Made by a program: the position numbers and the translations under genes
The notes under the pieces: generated by a model
Database searches by the model: none
Told to the model about the DNA's origin: nothing
What the model saw: the letters and a program-made list of their open reading frames with translations, nothing else
In this document: positions 30,517 through 37,559 of the stretch, one piece after another
Layout of the letters: every line of letters starts with the position of its first letter
How positions within the stretch are numbered: position 1 is the stretch's first letter
NCBI GenBank assembly: GCA_951812755.1
Contig: OX638329.1
Span: 1,473,339 to 1,537,338, forward strand
Direction: 5' to 3'
Length of the DNA stretch: 64,000 bases
From: an uncultured Latescibacterota bacterium
GTDB lineage: Bacteria > Latescibacterota > UBA2968

Positions 30517-30747
30517 ATGAAAACGGCGAAACTATTTGCAAATGGAAGAAGTCAGGCTGTTCGCTTGCCAAAGGAATTTCGGTTTGAGGGTTCCGAAGTC
30601 TATATCAGGCGATTGGGAAAGATGGTTGTTCTTTTGCCTCGGGATGATCCCTGGGCACCCCTTATTGAAAGTTTGGATATGTTCAGCGATGATTTCATGG
30701 CAGAACGCAATCAGCCTGTGGAACAACAAACGCGAGATAATTTGTGA
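30517..30747 (+). CDS. vapB: VapB-type antitoxin (AbrB/SpoVT-like swapped-hairpin)
   Basis: A 76-residue antitoxin. The N-terminal MKTAKLFANGRSQAVRLPKEFRF is the AbrB-like DNA-binding hairpin of VapB proteins (pattern NGxSQAVRLPKEF). The C-terminal DDPWAPLIESLDMFSDDFM would wrap the toxin. TAGGAG precedes the ATG. Its stop overlaps the toxin start by one base (TGATG), giving coupled translation. Known VapB proteins bind their own promoter together with VapC; a repeated GATATATAC lies upstream. Confidence 0.92.
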   Translation: MKTAKLFANGRSQAVRLPKEFRFEGSEVYIRRLGKMVVLLPRDDPWAPLIESLDMFSDDFMAERNQPVEQQTRDNL

Positions 30748-31148
30748 TGCGTTATATGCTCGATACTGATATCTGTATCTATATAATGAAAAAAAAGCCC
30801 GTCCAGATTATTCAGAAATTTCGGATGATGGATGTAGCAGATATTGGAATTTCTTCTATCACTTTGAGTGAATTGGAATACGGCGTTGAAAAGAGTAGAA
30901 ATAGAGAACGAAATCGGTTTGCATTGACCCATTTTCTGGCCCCGCTTCAAATTGTATCTTATAATGTTCGGGCTGCACAGAAATACGGTTTTATCCGCAG
31001 TCATTTGGAAAAGCAGGGCCAACCAATCGGACCGTTAGATACTTTGATCGCTGCACATGCGCTATCTTTGGATTGTATCTTTGTCACCAATAACGCAAGT
31101 GAATTCAAGCGCGTTCCAAATTTAACTGTAGAAAACTGGATGGCCTAA
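30747..31148 (+). CDS. vapC: VapC-type PIN-domain toxin ribonuclease
   Basis: A 133-residue PIN-domain protein. Acidic metal ligands are in place: D6 (MLDTDICIY), E42 (TLSELEYG) and D98 (GPLDTLIAAHA). The final motif reads TNNASEF, where many VapC proteins have TRNxxDF. Length and arrangement are standard for VapBC type II systems, in which the toxin cleaves tRNA or rRNA. The ATG overlaps the antitoxin stop. All catalytic residues are present, so the toxin is likely active. It converges on lpdA, with only 12 bases between the stops. Confidence 0.93.
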   Translation: MRYMLDTDICIYIMKKKPVQIIQKFRMMDVADIGISSITLSELEYGVEKSRNRERNRFALTHFLAPLQIVSYNVRAAQKYGFIRSHLEKQGQPIGPLDTLIAAHALSLDCIFVTNNASEFKRVPNLTVENWMA

Positions 31149-32587: not shown

Positions 32588-33847
32588 TTATCCGCCCATG
32601 AGCATGAGTTCTGGGTTTTCGAGCGCATCGACGATTTTTCGCATAAATCGCGCACCGTCGGCGCCGTCAATAACGCAGTGATCATAAGACAGTGCCAGGG
32701 GCATGATGAGGCGAGGTTCGATGCGCCCTTCGCGCACGGTGGCTTCTTCTCTGGCGCGTCCAAGTCCCATAATTGCAACTTCGGGGTGATTGACAATGGG
32801 GGTAAATTCGCCCACGCCCAGGCTGCCCAGGTTGGTGACGGTGAATGTGCCGCCTTGTAATTCGTCGAGGCCAATTTTGTTGGTGCGTGCGCGGTTGCTG
32901 ATGTCGCCGAGTTCGAGAGCCAGTTCCAGGATGTCTTTGCGATCGACGTCTTTGATGACGGGAACGAGTAAGCCGCGCTCGGTGTCAACGGCGATGCCGA
33001 GGTTATAGTAGTGTTTGAGAATAATCTCATTGGCTCCGGCATCGAGGCTGGCGTTGAATTGCGGAAAGGTCTTGAGCGCGGTGATGATTGCTTTTAGCGC
33101 GAGGACGGTCGGCGTCAGTTTGGCCCCCGATGCTTCGGTTTTGGCTTTGTTGCGCTGCCGAAATGCTTCGAGATCTGTGACATCTGCGCGATCAAATTGA
33201 GTGACATGAGCCACCTGTTGCCAGGCCTGGCTCATATTTTTTGCAATAATCTGCCGAACTCTGCTGAGGGGTTGGCGTTCGATGTTGCCCCATCTCGAGA
33301 AGTCGGGTAATTCGACAGGTGCTGTTGGTGCGATACCACCTGTTTGCCGATCGCGCACAGCGGCTTTGACATCGTCTTGTGAGATGCGTCCGCCGGGTCC
33401 TGAGCCAGCGACCTGTGTGAGATCTACGCCGAGTTCTCGCGCGAGCCGCCGCGTGGATGGGGCTGCGGGAATGGGGTCGCCGTTGGATGTGGGGGCAGGT
33501 GGCCTGGAAGGTGTTGGTGCGGGAGCTTTGGCGGTGGGTACGGGTTCTTCTTTTGATGCAGGAGCTGGTGCTTCGGCTTCCGGCTCAGGGGCTGTCGGGA
33601 CGGATTGTTCGCCTTCTTCAACGGAGATCAGCAAGCTGCCCACGGGCACGCGGTCTCCGGCACTGATGTGTATTTTTGTGACGGTGCCAGCAACACTGCT
33701 GGGTACTTCAACGAGGGCTTTGTCGGTTTCGAGTTCGACTACGCTCTGATCGATTTCAACGGTGTCGCCCTCGGCAACAAGTACGCCGACAACATCGCCA
33801 GCTTCCACACCTTCGCCGAGATCGGGAAGTTTAAATTCGGTTGCCAC
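32588..33847 (-). CDS. aceF: Dihydrolipoamide acetyltransferase (pyruvate dehydrogenase E2)
   Basis: A 419-residue E2. One N-terminal lipoyl domain (VELETDKALVEVPSS, lipoyl Lys43), a Pro/Ala-rich linker of about 50 residues, a peripheral-subunit-binding domain (STRRLARELGVDLTQV then GRISQDDVKAAV), a second linker, and the catalytic domain ending LALSYDHCVIDGADGARFM with the active-site His. It has a single lipoyl domain, where enteric AceF has three. The substrate is assigned as pyruvate from the homodimeric E1 gene upstream; the NYN gene lies between E1 and E2. Confidence 0.92.
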   Translation of the reverse strand: MATEFKLPDLGEGVEAGDVVGVLVAEGDTVEIDQSVVELETDKALVEVPSSVAGTVTKIHISAGDRVPVGSLLISVEEGEQSVPTAPEPEAEAPAPASKEEPVPTAKAPAPTPSRPPAPTSNGDPIPAAPSTRRLARELGVDLTQVAGSGPGGRISQDDVKAAVRDRQTGGIAPTAPVELPDFSRWGNIERQPLSRVRQIIAKNMSQAWQQVAHVTQFDRADVTDLEAFRQRNKAKTEASGAKLTPTVLALKAIITALKTFPQFNASLDAGANEIILKHYYNLGIAVDTERGLLVPVIKDVDRKDILELALELGDISNRARTNKIGLDELQGGTFTVTNLGSLGVGEFTPIVNHPEVAIMGLGRAREEATVREGRIEPRLIMPLALSYDHCVIDGADGARFMRKIVDALENPELMLMGG

Positions 33848-33965
33848 GAGATTTCCTTTCTACGCAACGAGGTATAGACATAAGGAATATAAAATGTAAG
33901 AATATTACCACTTTATGTCATTGCATTCTTGCGTGCCAAATTTCGATTCGCTAAAAGTTCTTTTT

Positions 33966-34586
33966 TTAACGCCACTTTGAGGGCTTGCTAAGGATATACC
34001 CATCGGTTTTGGTAATCTGATCTGGTAACTGACTGTCACTGAGTTTCTTGCGGCCTATAGTAAACCACGCAGTTGCCATCTGCTGTAACTGGAAAGAACT
34101 GCGTTCTGGCGGGAAGGCAACAATTATCCGTTTTTTTGAGTAACGTTGGCAAATAGAACTTATTGGGCCTGCCAAGTCACTATCGCCAGAGATGATGATT
34201 GCCGTATCGAAAGCATCATCCTGCGCGTCGCTGAGCAACTCAACGGCAATATTCACATCTGTCATTTTTTCCTCATAGGTCTGCCAGGTCGCGCCGCATT
34301 GCGAGCAGGTTCTATTTTTTGAGAGGTAGTAGCCGTAATGAATGTGCAGGTCTGGAAGCGTAGCCAGTGCTTCCAGGTAGGTATTCTGCCGCCTCTTTTT
34401 TTGCGGGTCGTCGGTCTGGTGCAGAATCTTAGCGGTAAAATACCTGACCGCTACCAAACGCTGGCCGGGGATCAGCAGTTTCTCAGCCAGACGACGAAGG
34501 TTAAGCCAGTAGTACCGCCGCCAGCCTTTGGATCTGAGGCCGTAGTAGAGATTGAACCCATCAATGTACACCGAGACTCGCTGCAT
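33966..34586 (-). CDS. NYN-domain protein (PIN-like/LabA-type nuclease) inside the pdh cluster
   Basis: A 206-residue NYN-domain protein. VYIDGFNLYYGL gives the first Asp (D9) and the family Asn, EEKMTDVNIAVELL the middle acidic cluster, and IIISGDSDLAGPI the third, with SSICQRYSKKRIIVAFPP after it. These match the PIN-like active site of NYN RNases (LabA, MARF1 relatives). A central CSQCGATW supplies one CxxC pair. AGGAGAGG precedes the ATG at 34586. It has its own upstream spacer with a perfect TATAAT on its strand and is on the same strand as the E1, E2 and E3 genes. Target RNA unknown. Confidence 0.84.
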   Translation of the reverse strand: MQRVSVYIDGFNLYYGLRSKGWRRYYWLNLRRLAEKLLIPGQRLVAVRYFTAKILHQTDDPQKKRRQNTYLEALATLPDLHIHYGYYLSKNRTCSQCGATWQTYEEKMTDVNIAVELLSDAQDDAFDTAIIISGDSDLAGPISSICQRYSKKRIIVAFPPERSSFQLQQMATAWFTIGRKKLSDSQLPDQITKTDGYILSKPSKWR

Positions 34587-34626
34587 CAATGGCCTCTCCT
34601 GCCTGAGAAAAAAAGTGAAACAAATA

Positions 34627-34655
34627 TTGACTTATTATATTACGTTGAGTATTAT
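34627..34655 (+). promoter_or_regulatory. Strong consensus promoter reading away from the NYN gene
   Basis: TTGACT at 34627-34632, a 17-base spacer, TATTAT at 34650-34655. On the minus strand a TATAAT lies at 34634-34639, inside this promoter, so the + transcript and the NYN gene have overlapping divergent promoters. No + strand gene follows until 39422, but a terminator lies 37 bases downstream. Confidence 0.6.
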
Positions 34656-34661
34656 TATTAC

Positions 34662-34719
34662 ACCACCTCAACGAGTAGTATCGTTGGGCCGACGCCCCGT
34701 AAGGGGCGTTTCTTTTTTT
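34662..34719 (+). ncRNA. Candidate small RNA of about 58 nt
   Basis: A predicted transcript from about 34662 (7 bases after the -10) to the T run at 34719. It would hold a first hairpin, CAACGA-GTAGTA-TCGTTG at 34669-34686, and a terminator hairpin, ACGCCCC-GTAA-GGGGCGT at 34692-34709, followed by TTTCTTTTTTT. No start codon with a ribosome site lies within. It could be a free sRNA, a decoy or a guide for the adjacent NYN nuclease, or an unrelated terminator. Promoter, structure and terminator are seen; existence of the RNA is inferred. Confidence 0.45.
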
Positions 34720-34853
34720 GTACTGCCATTTGTCTTGATAGGATATTCAGGCACCGATCCTACCTTCACTGCCTCACTTCTGTCACGCTGTGTCCACCGT
34801 TCACTTGCTGTGTTCATGGATGTGAACCTCTATTGAACAAGTATGTCCAGAAA

Positions 34854-37559
34854 CTAATAGTACGTCGTGACCGGGCCTGCCGATACGGGATCGATTTTCT
34901 CGGGATCTATTCCGAGTTCGTCGATGGCTGTGGCGACCTGTTCGCGTTTGATTTTGCCCTGTTTTGCCAGGGCGTAAAGCGCGGCCACAGCAATGCATTC
35001 GGCGTCAACTTCAAAATGCCGGCGCAGAGCCTGGCGCGTGTCGCTGCGCCCAAATCCATCTGTGCCGAGCACCGTCATGTCTTCGGGTGCCCAGGGGCGG
35101 ATCATTTCGGGCAGGGATTTCATGTAATCGGATGCGGCGACGATCGGGCCATCGGTTTTTTCGAGCACTTTGACGATATACGGCTTTTTCTTGCGCCGCG
35201 TTGGGTGTAGCATGTTCCACCGCTCGGTCTCAAGCGCGTCCCGTCGCAATTCTTTGTATGAGGTGACGCTCCACACATCGGCGGAAATATTGTATTCGGC
35301 GGCGAGGATTTCTTGCGCGCGCAGGGTTTCGCGAAGGATGGATGCACTGCCAAAGAGCTGAACTTTGTGCTGGCCCTGTTGCATTTCGTGCGTCTTGAGC
35401 GGATAAATGCCTTTGACAATGCCTTCTTCAACGCCTTTGGGCATGGGGGGGTGTTCGTAGTTTTCATTGCCCAGGGTCATATAATAATAAACATCTTCCT
35501 GTTCCTGGTACATGCGCCGAATGCCGTCCTGGATGATGATGGCTATTTCGTAAGCATAAGCCGGATCATAGGCGATACAGTTGGGAACGGATGAGGCCAG
35601 AATGTGGCTGTGTCCGTCTTCGTGCTGAAGGCCTTCGCCGTTGAGCGTGGTGCGCCCGGCTGTTCCGCCCAATAAAAAGCCCTTGCAGCGGATATCGCCG
35701 GCCAGCCACATGAGGTCGCCCACGCGCTGGAAACCGAACATGGAATAATAGATGTAGAATGGGATGGTGTTGACGCCGTGCGTGGCATAAGCTGTGCCAG
35801 CGCATATAAATGAGGACATGGCACCGGCTTCGTTGATGCCTTCTTCGAGAATTTGGCCGTCTTGCGCTTCTCGATAGTAGCTGATGTTGCCCGCGTCAAC
35901 GGGTTCGTATATCTGCCCCATGTGCGAGTAGATGCCGAGTTGCCGAAAGAGGGAATCCATACCAAAGGTGCGGGCTTCGTCCGGGATGATGGGGACGAGC
36001 AGTTTGCCGATGTCTTTGTCGCGGGCGAGTTTGGCAAATAGGCGCGCAAAAGCCATTGTTGTAGAGGCCTGGCGGTCGCCTGTGCCTTTGAGGGCTTCGT
36101 CGAATACGTCGCGCGAGGGTGCTTGAATGGGTTTGGCACGCACGCTTCGGCTGGGCAAATATCCACCGAGTTCGTTTCGGCGTTGTAGCAGATACTGCAT
36201 TTCGGGGCTGTCGTCGGGGGGACGATAAAAGGGTGCTTTGCCCACTTCGCTGTCGGAGATGGGGATGTCAAAGCGCCGCTTGAATTCTCGCATCTCGTCT
36301 TCTTCGAGCTTTTTTTGCTGGTGGGTCATGTTGCGGCCTTCGCCAGCTTCGCCCAGGCCATAGCCCTTGATGGTTTTGGCCAGGATGACTGTTGGTGCGC
36401 CTTTGTGTTCCACAGCGGCTTTGAAGGCGGCGTACACCTTTTCGGGATCGTGACCTCCGCGACGCAATTTTTGAAGTTGTTCATCCGAGAGGTGTTCGAC
36501 TATTTTGAGCAGGTCGGGATGGGTGCCAAAAAAGTCGCGGCGGATGTATTCGCCGGATTCGACGGTGTATTTCTGGTATTGACCATCAACGACTTCTTCC
36601 ATGCGTTCCTGAAGCAGGCCCTGGGTATCTTTTTCGAGTAGTGCGTCCCAATCGTCTCCCCATATTACTTTGATGACATTCCAGCCAGCGCCGCGAAAGA
36701 CTTGTTCGAGTTCTTGAATGATTTTGCTATTGCCGCGCACGGGACCGTCGAGGCGTTGCAGGTTGCAGTTGATCACAAAGATGAGGTTGTCGAGTTGTTC
36801 GCGGGTTGCCAGACTAATGGCGCCGAGGGTTTCGGGTTCGTCTGTTTCGCCGTCGCCAACAAAGACCCAGACTTTGGAATCGCGAGTCGATTTGAGGCCG
36901 CGGTCTTCGAGGTAGCGGTTGAAGCGGGCCTGGTAGATGCCCATGAGTGGGCCAAGTCCCATTGAGACCGTGGGGAATTGCCAGAAGTCGGGCATGAGGT
37001 AGGGGTGTGGATAGGAAGACAGGCCGCCGGGATTGCGGAGTTCTCGGCGGAAGTTTTCGAGGTGTTCGGTGCTCAATCGCCCTTCGAGAAATGCGCGGGC
37101 ATACATGCCGGGAGAGGCATGACCTTGAAAGAAGACCTGATCTCCGGAGAAATCGCCATTGGGTGCTTTGAAGAAGTGATTTTGACCTACTTCATACAAC
37201 GTAGCAGCCGATGCAAAGGTGGAGATGTGACCGCCAATGCCATCGGCTTCTTTGTTGGCGCGGGTAACCATTGCCATGGCATTCCAGCGCACGAGACTTT
37301 TGATGCGGCGCTCAATTTCTCGGTCGCCCGGATAGGGCAGTTGTTTGTCGCGCGGGATGGTGTTGACATAAGGTGTATGGGATGCGAAGGGAATGTCAAC
37401 GCTCAGACTTTGCTGGGCTTCTTGTTCGAGGCGGTCGAGCAAATAGCGCACGCGGTCGGGGCCGCCGTTTTGCAGAACATAAGCCAGAGATTCGATCCAT
37501 TCTTCGGTTTCGATGGGATCGGTATCGCGAAATGTACCTGATGCGACAGTATCGGCCAT
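34854..37559 (-). CDS. aceE: Pyruvate dehydrogenase E1 component, homodimeric
   Basis: A 901-residue thiamine-diphosphate E1 of the single-chain (AceE) type, which decarboxylates pyruvate and acetylates the lipoyl arm of E2. The ThDP/Mg motif is VFVGDGETDEPETLGA ending in NCNLQRLDGPVRGN. The N-terminal region (EWIESLAYVLQNGGPDRVRYLL) and NADGIGGHISTFASAA-like stretch (EADGIGGHISTFASAATLYE) are typical of AceE. Length is close to the usual 885-890. It is the first gene of the cluster. An imperfect palindrome about 195 bases upstream could be its operator. Confidence 0.95.
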   Translation of the reverse strand: MADTVASGTFRDTDPIETEEWIESLAYVLQNGGPDRVRYLLDRLEQEAQQSLSVDIPFASHTPYVNTIPRDKQLPYPGDREIERRIKSLVRWNAMAMVTRANKEADGIGGHISTFASAATLYEVGQNHFFKAPNGDFSGDQVFFQGHASPGMYARAFLEGRLSTEHLENFRRELRNPGGLSSYPHPYLMPDFWQFPTVSMGLGPLMGIYQARFNRYLEDRGLKSTRDSKVWVFVGDGETDEPETLGAISLATREQLDNLIFVINCNLQRLDGPVRGNSKIIQELEQVFRGAGWNVIKVIWGDDWDALLEKDTQGLLQERMEEVVDGQYQKYTVESGEYIRRDFFGTHPDLLKIVEHLSDEQLQKLRRGGHDPEKVYAAFKAAVEHKGAPTVILAKTIKGYGLGEAGEGRNMTHQQKKLEEDEMREFKRRFDIPISDSEVGKAPFYRPPDDSPEMQYLLQRRNELGGYLPSRSVRAKPIQAPSRDVFDEALKGTGDRQASTTMAFARLFAKLARDKDIGKLLVPIIPDEARTFGMDSLFRQLGIYSHMGQIYEPVDAGNISYYREAQDGQILEEGINEAGAMSSFICAGTAYATHGVNTIPFYIYYSMFGFQRVGDLMWLAGDIRCKGFLLGGTAGRTTLNGEGLQHEDGHSHILASSVPNCIAYDPAYAYEIAIIIQDGIRRMYQEQEDVYYYMTLGNENYEHPPMPKGVEEGIVKGIYPLKTHEMQQGQHKVQLFGSASILRETLRAQEILAAEYNISADVWSVTSYKELRRDALETERWNMLHPTRRKKKPYIVKVLEKTDGPIVAASDYMKSLPEMIRPWAPEDMTVLGTDGFGRSDTRQALRRHFEVDAECIAVAALYALAKQGKIKREQVATAIDELGIDPEKIDPVSAGPVTTYY

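Follow-up and report, generated by a model that had tools for sequence, protein, structure and literature searches.

A covarying two-hairpin RNA kept beside HEC-09-family NYN nuclease genes: a possible type III-like toxin-antitoxin or defence module

The window analysed here (the whole stretch of 64,000 nt, from genome G000, a single 6.5 Mb contig which its relatives show to be a Latescibacterota MAG) carries a NYN nuclease gene between the genes for the E1 and E2 components of pyruvate dehydrogenase (pdh). By the list of open reading frames all of these lie on the minus strand, in the order E1, NYN, E2, E3, and Pfam also identifies E1, E2 and E3. The spacer between E1 and NYN measures 264 nt and the gap between NYN and E2 118 nt, so that the gene order, the strands and a spacer of about 260 bases are as the first-pass annotation had claimed. 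The plus-strand promoter, hairpin and terminator which it had placed opposite to NYN were found by scan and folding at the positions given below, and the TATAAT of the NYN strand within the promoter of the RNA could be seen by eye.

32588–33847, minus strand: pdh E2 (ORF and Pfam), flanking the unit and not part of it
33966–34589, minus strand: NYN nuclease gene, 206–207 aa, HEC-09 family (ORF, Pfam, PADLOC, predicted structure)
34627–34655, plus strand: sigma-70-type promoter of the RNA, TTGACT-17-TATTAT (promoter scan)
34634–34639, minus strand: possible −10 of NYN, TATAAT, inside the spacer of the RNA promoter (by eye)
34662–34720, plus strand: small two-hairpin RNA, predicted at about 58–59 nt (match to model R1, fold, second copy in the genome)
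34667–34688, plus strand: hairpin 1, 8 bp, consensus stem-GAUAGYAUC-stem (strong covariation, fold)
34691–34719, plus strand: hairpin 2 (GACGCCCC..GGGGCGUU) and U tract, together an intrinsic terminator (scan, covariation, fold)
34721–34853, no strand assigned: spacer from the RNA to E1, its first part resembling sequence next to the RNA in G004 and G005 (by eye)
34854–37559, minus strand: pdh E1 (ORF and Pfam), flanking the unit and not part of it

The NYN gene more likely starts at the ATG at 34586 than at the TTG at 34589. Its product possesses the Pfam NYN domain PF01936 (6e-13, above the gathering score) and matches the PADLOC model HEC-09 with an E value of 6e-92, residues 2–207 aligning to positions 1–203 of 203; HEC-09 matches this protein and three other members end to end (1e-79 to 3e-101). 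D9, N12, E106, K107, D110, D135 and D137 are invariant in 54 NYN sequences, and we take the conserved acidic residues to be catalytic. The AlphaFold2 model of the protein (pLDDT 95.4, pTM 0.90) suggests that the closest solved folds are VPA0982 (2qip, 9.5e-11) and then the NYN domain of MARF1 (5yaa, 5.8e-5); NYN folds lead, and no ToxN structure is among the best 50 fold matches listed. The distribution of the family is patchy, taking in small plasmids and defence islands.

On the plus strand the terminator scan identified a stem at 34691–34710 followed by TCTTTTTTTG. The predicted RNA as a whole (34662–34720) forms two hairpins with a folding energy of −26.1 kcal/mol (z −4.2), a stability matched by none of 200 shuffles. 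The covariance model R1, whose construction is given below, covers 34658–34720 with 61 bits (3.5e-16), the window being one of its 23 training rows. A second NYN copy, sharing 74% amino-acid identity, is present at 26.3 kb in the same genome. A DNA search of this genome showed the same 58 nt RNA stretch to be 91% identical beside the second copy, and the DNA between RNA and NYN gave no match between the two. Because the RNA stretch is so similar at both copies and the spacer is without a match, we consider it more than a chance hairpin. Rfam, searched at E up to 5, returned nothing in 33800–34900 and two sub-threshold matches elsewhere in the stretch; at ten further loci it returned tRNAs only. 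Membership of a known Rfam family was rejected, as none covers the RNA.

A NYN homologue (E up to 1e-20) was found in 13 of 60 relatives, and at all eight loci that were read the RNA lies upstream of and opposite to NYN, in differing genomic settings. A genome collection was then scanned with eight NYN proteins as queries, and the best 80 loci of a longer list were kept. A strict pattern scan for the RNA missed many copies and was replaced by a looser detector and then by a covariance model. The alignment A3 contains 23 RNAs, from the window, 21 genome loci and one viral contig, with a consensus of roughly ACA-C-stem-GAUAGYAUC-stem-CCGACGCC..GGCGUUUCUUUU. Eleven of its 17 pairs show two-sided change. 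The alignment scores 0.495 for covariation, where shuffles give 0.189 (none of 500 as high) and slid partners 0.11–0.17; the sequence of stem 1 turns over freely while its pairing is kept. Since the rows were picked by a detector which seeks hairpins, the percentage of paired positions in A3 is biased upward. In a control outside A3 that was anchored on nothing but the terminator sequence, 29 of 34 loci had a stem of 7 bp or more immediately ahead of the anchor, against 1.9% of shuffles, 25 loci lacking a terminator anchor being excluded from the count.

R1 was trained on the 23 copies of A3 and finds the RNA across phyla. Covariance searching beside other NYN genes had been proposed together with the original observation, on the view that absence of conservation would tell against it; the RNA proved to be conserved. 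Of the 59 held-out NYN loci (the others among the best 80, some of them closely related to training rows), R1 matched 52 with an E value no higher than 0.01. It missed L050, L067, L073, L085, L090, L092 and L098. L073 is truncated by the end of its contig with the 5′ half of the RNA visible, the NYN N-terminus of L067 is broken, and L085, L090, L092 and L098 have a different hairpin RNA and terminator on the NYN strand (L098 by eye). At L050 no RNA was detectable.

Forty whole genomes, adding up to about 152 Mb by listed sizes, served to assess linkage; they hold loci L023–L068 and were chosen for having NYN. With an E cut-off of 1e-4, R1 gave 53 matches spread over 39 of the 40 genomes. A NYN gene or a piece of one lies no more than 3 kb from 49 of these matches; the other four, one of them weak, have no NYN nearby. 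Seen from the nuclease, the RNA lies no more than 3 kb from 41 of 43 close NYN genes (HEC-09 profile matches at E up to 1e-60), and for 40 of these no more than 300 nt away; it is kept beside NYN genes in this set also. The two close NYN genes without a match are those of G088 (L050) and G091:C267 (L065), the latter gene being interrupted by an in-frame stop and R1 matching only weakly there, at 19.4 bits. The RNA lies upstream on the opposite strand in 35 cases, upstream on the same strand in three and downstream on the opposite strand in three. About four RNA copies with a 105-nt period stand downstream of NYN at L023, and L027, L028, L030 and L074 have two copies each. On a tree of 74 NYN proteins, many branches of which are weakly supported, the layouts need six changes against a shuffled mean of 26.9. 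On these sequence comparisons the RNA belongs with this NYN family, and as it may be found on either strand and upstream or downstream of NYN it is more than just a leader or antisense transcript.

The variety of positions bears on the idea that the RNA is NYN's own substrate or sensor, cut or bound by NYN in an autoregulatory switch which controls NYN expression through a terminator or attenuator and is devoid of toxin function. In distant relatives, described below, a terminator on the NYN strand does immediately precede the start of the gene, and in the window the RNA promoter overlaps the possible −10 of NYN, both of which speak for such a switch. Against this, where the RNA is upstream and opposite (35 of 43) or downstream (three) its terminator cannot control NYN, and a patchy gene found on small plasmids and in defence islands is unlike a housekeeping RNase. 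We regard such a switch as quite unlikely.

The RNA copies also bring their own lineage-appropriate promoters. In a list compiled by hand from detector and R1 matches, tandem copies included, a sigma-70 match (TTGACA-type) of at least 9/12 occurs just upstream of 42 of 53 RNA copies (10.6% of shuffles), and one of at least 10/12 upstream of 33 of the 53 (1.5% of shuffles). Among Bacteroidota and Chlorobi, 15 of 23 copies are preceded by TAnnTTTG (5.6% of shuffles), presumably the Bacteroidetes −7 element. Such promoters would be odd if the hairpins did no more than mark one end of a mobile element or, as a passive terminator, travel with the gene. The varied insertion sites of the unit and the existence of solo copies would suit that explanation, but the RNA moves independently of NYN side and strand, there are few RNA copies per genome, and no matching second end follows the NYN stop in the flanks of the loci read by eye. 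We give this explanation very little weight.

Neighbouring divergent RNAs can be antisense RNAs, and in a type I-like arrangement the RNA would pair with the NYN mRNA and repress it. A first duplex test favoured cognate pairs; it was discarded because its targets might have included the complement of the RNA itself, and the signal was gone once non-overlapping regions were used. With such RNA and NYN start regions the 44 loci showed no cognate preference (mean rank 0.46, KS p 0.41). Stem 1 is, moreover, free to change its sequence as long as pairing is maintained. Antisense control of NYN is disfavoured by these sequence tests, and we hold it to be highly improbable.

The site between E1 and E2 is itself informative. 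E2 is present in all 11 genomes of the genus, and a comparison of pdh order in related genomes, as had been advised, found E1 and E2 directly adjacent in seven of the 11, E1 ending about 25 nt before E2. RNA and NYN stand before E2 in the window, G005 and G008, and RNA alone does so in G004, where the RNA and its promoter are kept and NYN is gone. G004, which has lost NYN, and G005, which retains it, also have HmaC and HmaB in the E1–E2 gap, and the gap of G008 encodes a protein matching the PADLOC Orf5 and HEC-06 models, the E1–E2 gap of these three genus genomes thus containing defence genes. Based upon the gap contents of these relatives, the insertion would be a defence-type island, cut down in the window to RNA and NYN. 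The first part of the spacer 34721–34853 is probably a remnant of the larger island. The window NYN has pdh genes as neighbours and no Hma there; HmaA is found beside a copy on a Thermus plasmid. The pdh context of the unit is, judging from these gene orders, incidental, and a role in pyruvate dehydrogenase was considered and rejected. Two further features were observed at these sites. In G008 (L211), in addition to the HEC-06/Orf5-like gene, fragments of transposase-like ORFs were recognised by eye immediately before E1, and in the window a VapBC-like pair, a MazE-like antitoxin and a PIN toxin, lies on the plus strand just past the end of E3 (30517–31148).

RNAs without an intact nuclease were sought in 64 Latescibacterota genomes, counting matches at E up to 1e-8 and taking 11 low-scoring ones (per-genome E 7e-4 to 1e-2) as chance. 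The RNA lies within 300 nt of all nine close NYN genes, and only nine of the 18 RNAs have an intact NYN within 300 nt (ten within 3 kb). That RNAs outlast the nuclease, and that an intact close NYN is hardly ever free of RNA, is what one would predict for an antidote. At L183 a C-terminal NYN fragment adjoins the RNA and at L190 a NYN fragment lies about 1.4 kb off. The remnant-free orphans include RNAs near ilvD (L187), transporter genes (L188, L189) and other genes, the ORFs being read by eye, and some orphan RNAs adjoin other defence genes. At L188 and L189, in G015 and G017, the orphan apparently occupies a common site, next to a shared 676-aa ORF and with no NYN remnant; as two genomes share it, a solo RNA may be kept over time. 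The orphans at L184 and L186 (G005, G006), likewise free of a NYN remnant, lie by what looks by eye like a McrBC-like pair, for which the profile matches were weak ones to REase_II only.

The orphans could also come from decay of a cooperative system. The main rival of restraint by RNA is that the RNA is a positive cofactor which activates, positions or guides NYN as an RNP effector. RNA and NYN co-occur almost obligately, loop and linker are conserved more than pairing requires, and the RNA gene is movable and at times arrayed, all of which a cofactor would account for. A3, however, has no variable guide segment, and the persistence of solo RNAs once NYN is lost would not be expected of a cofactor that had become useless. 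Same-strand relatives, furthermore, have a terminator between RNA and nuclease, like known antitoxin operons as described in the accessible parts of PMC5086642. A cofactor role thus seems to us unlikely.

Those same-strand relatives are found among more distant NYN genes. Fifty loci were picked, of which two were dropped for a short upstream region; the remaining 48 include near-copies. Two adjacent hairpins and a terminator occur within 160 nt upstream on the same strand in 32 of the 48 against 30 of 960 shuffles, by a detector which was not blind, having been devised after 13 of those upstream regions were read. In a separate alignment of ten of these RNAs, ten of 17 pairs show two-sided change and the score is 0.571 against 0.264 for shuffles, of which none in 500 reached the observed value, although pair types are no more numerous than in shuffles. 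R1 matches there are weak at most (17 and 13 bits), and the distant RNAs are for that reason not established as belonging to R1's family.

Plasmid records with NYN homologues number 44 with the window protein as query and 423 with that of L115. On the E. coli plasmid pRHB09-C15_4 (L207, 2963–3079) 33-nt hairpin repeats and a terminator stand directly before NYN, the array comprising 2.6 copies at 96% and one diverged copy. The NYN protein of this plasmid recurs at 99% identity or more in 17 plasmid records. Small E. coli and Klebsiella plasmids (L247–L250) have a long, strongly folded leader and a terminator before a more distant NYN, with a divergent HTH gene beside them in three of the four stretches. 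L252 and other plasmid records from Pseudomonas and Xanthomonas label NYN-like genes nicB or 6-hydroxy-3-succinoylpyridine hydroxylase, possibly a misnaming.

Our preferred reading, to which we assign a probability of about 0.6, is that NYN and the RNA form a mobile two-part module, type III-like toxin-antitoxin or abortive-defence, in which the RNA restrains the nuclease. The NYN protein would be a PIN-like RNase, harmful to the cell or phage-stopping when free. The two-hairpin RNA, running from its own strong promoter to its own terminator, would bind NYN and hold it inactive, and a drop in RNA supply, when a phage shuts down transcription in the host or when the DNA is lost, would free the nuclease. 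We propose restraint, and release upon loss of the RNA, as they are known for ToxIN (PMC5086642) and AvcID (PMC10511110); transcription of the RNA, its direct binding to the protein, inhibition, toxicity and the trigger are what we infer. The gene, the covarying RNA, its promoter, the linkage to NYN, the freedom of position and strand, the persistence of the RNA and the settings in defence islands and on small plasmids are shown here. A regulatory or toxin-RNA pair had been suggested in the first-pass annotation, and conservation beside NYN, covariation and the outlasting of the nuclease by the RNA support such a pair, in which inhibition would be the presumed step. Counting against the preferred reading, the RNA of the window clade is divergent, single-copy and outside the toxin operon. 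The same holds for the two close NYN genes lacking an RNA match, for the alternative origin of orphan RNAs by decay and for the correlation of HEC-09 with phage susceptibility given below. As to a wider proposal, we see about even odds that a broad NYN superfamily, from very small enterobacterial plasmids to the chromosomes of Latescibacterota, is under cognate small RNAs, with the antitoxin RNA of the HEC-09 branch having become free-standing, self-promoted, on either strand and side, arrayed, or solo as a possible anti-addiction factor. RNA control of NYN across the superfamily would, if true, define a new class of system, defensive or toxin-antitoxin, under the control of RNA.

Among known systems the closest by protein is HEC-09 (PADLOC PDLC04163, a Hma-embedded candidate defence gene), which the window protein matches over its full length. 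HEC-09 is currently listed as a single-protein defence candidate and its PADLOC model is protein only; a putative RNA partner is added here. Among the open-access papers searched, none was found that describes an RNA with HEC-09 or a NYN type III system. If the RNA is an obligate partner, assays which move the HEC-09 protein alone would miss the system or find toxicity. The accessible parts of PMC12447246 report HEC-09 as correlated with phage susceptibility, not resistance, in Pseudomonas, which points away from anti-phage activity. Protein-only finders are blind to such RNAs, as the DefensePredictor authors state of their own tool in the accessible parts of PMC13092281.

The likeness to VPA0982 (2qip) and MARF1 (5yaa) comes from a fold search on the predicted model, and we know of no RNA partner of this kind for either. 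In type I systems the RNA is complementary to the toxin mRNA, and no cognate preference was seen at the 44 loci.

With the type III systems ToxIN, CptIN and TenpIN, as the accessible parts of PMC5086642 describe them, the unit shares an endonuclease and a short structured RNA with an intrinsic terminator, and the distant NYN relatives also share the order RNA, terminator, gene, one of them with a 33-nt repeat array. Unlike these systems it would have a NYN/PIN-like rather than a ToxN fold, to judge by the predicted structure. The window RNA is divergent with its own promoter, and not upstream on the same strand under one promoter, a layout which is met in the distant relatives and in three of the 43 close NYN genes. 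It is present in single copy without tandem repeats, whereas L023 and L207 have arrays, and its terminator points away from NYN, whereas in the distant relatives the terminator lies between RNA and NYN. AvcID, whose type III toxin is a deaminase, indicates that type III toxins need not be ToxN-like (PMC10511110, accessible parts). The resemblance to AvcID would lie in an RNA antitoxin with a toxin of unrelated fold; the enzyme is another one and so, from the parts of PMC10511110 seen, is the RNA. If the preferred reading is true, a PIN-like nuclease would be added to the few enzymes that small RNAs are known to hold in check, and the pairing of RNA and NYN gives a clear prediction which can be tested in standard laboratory strains of E. 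coli.
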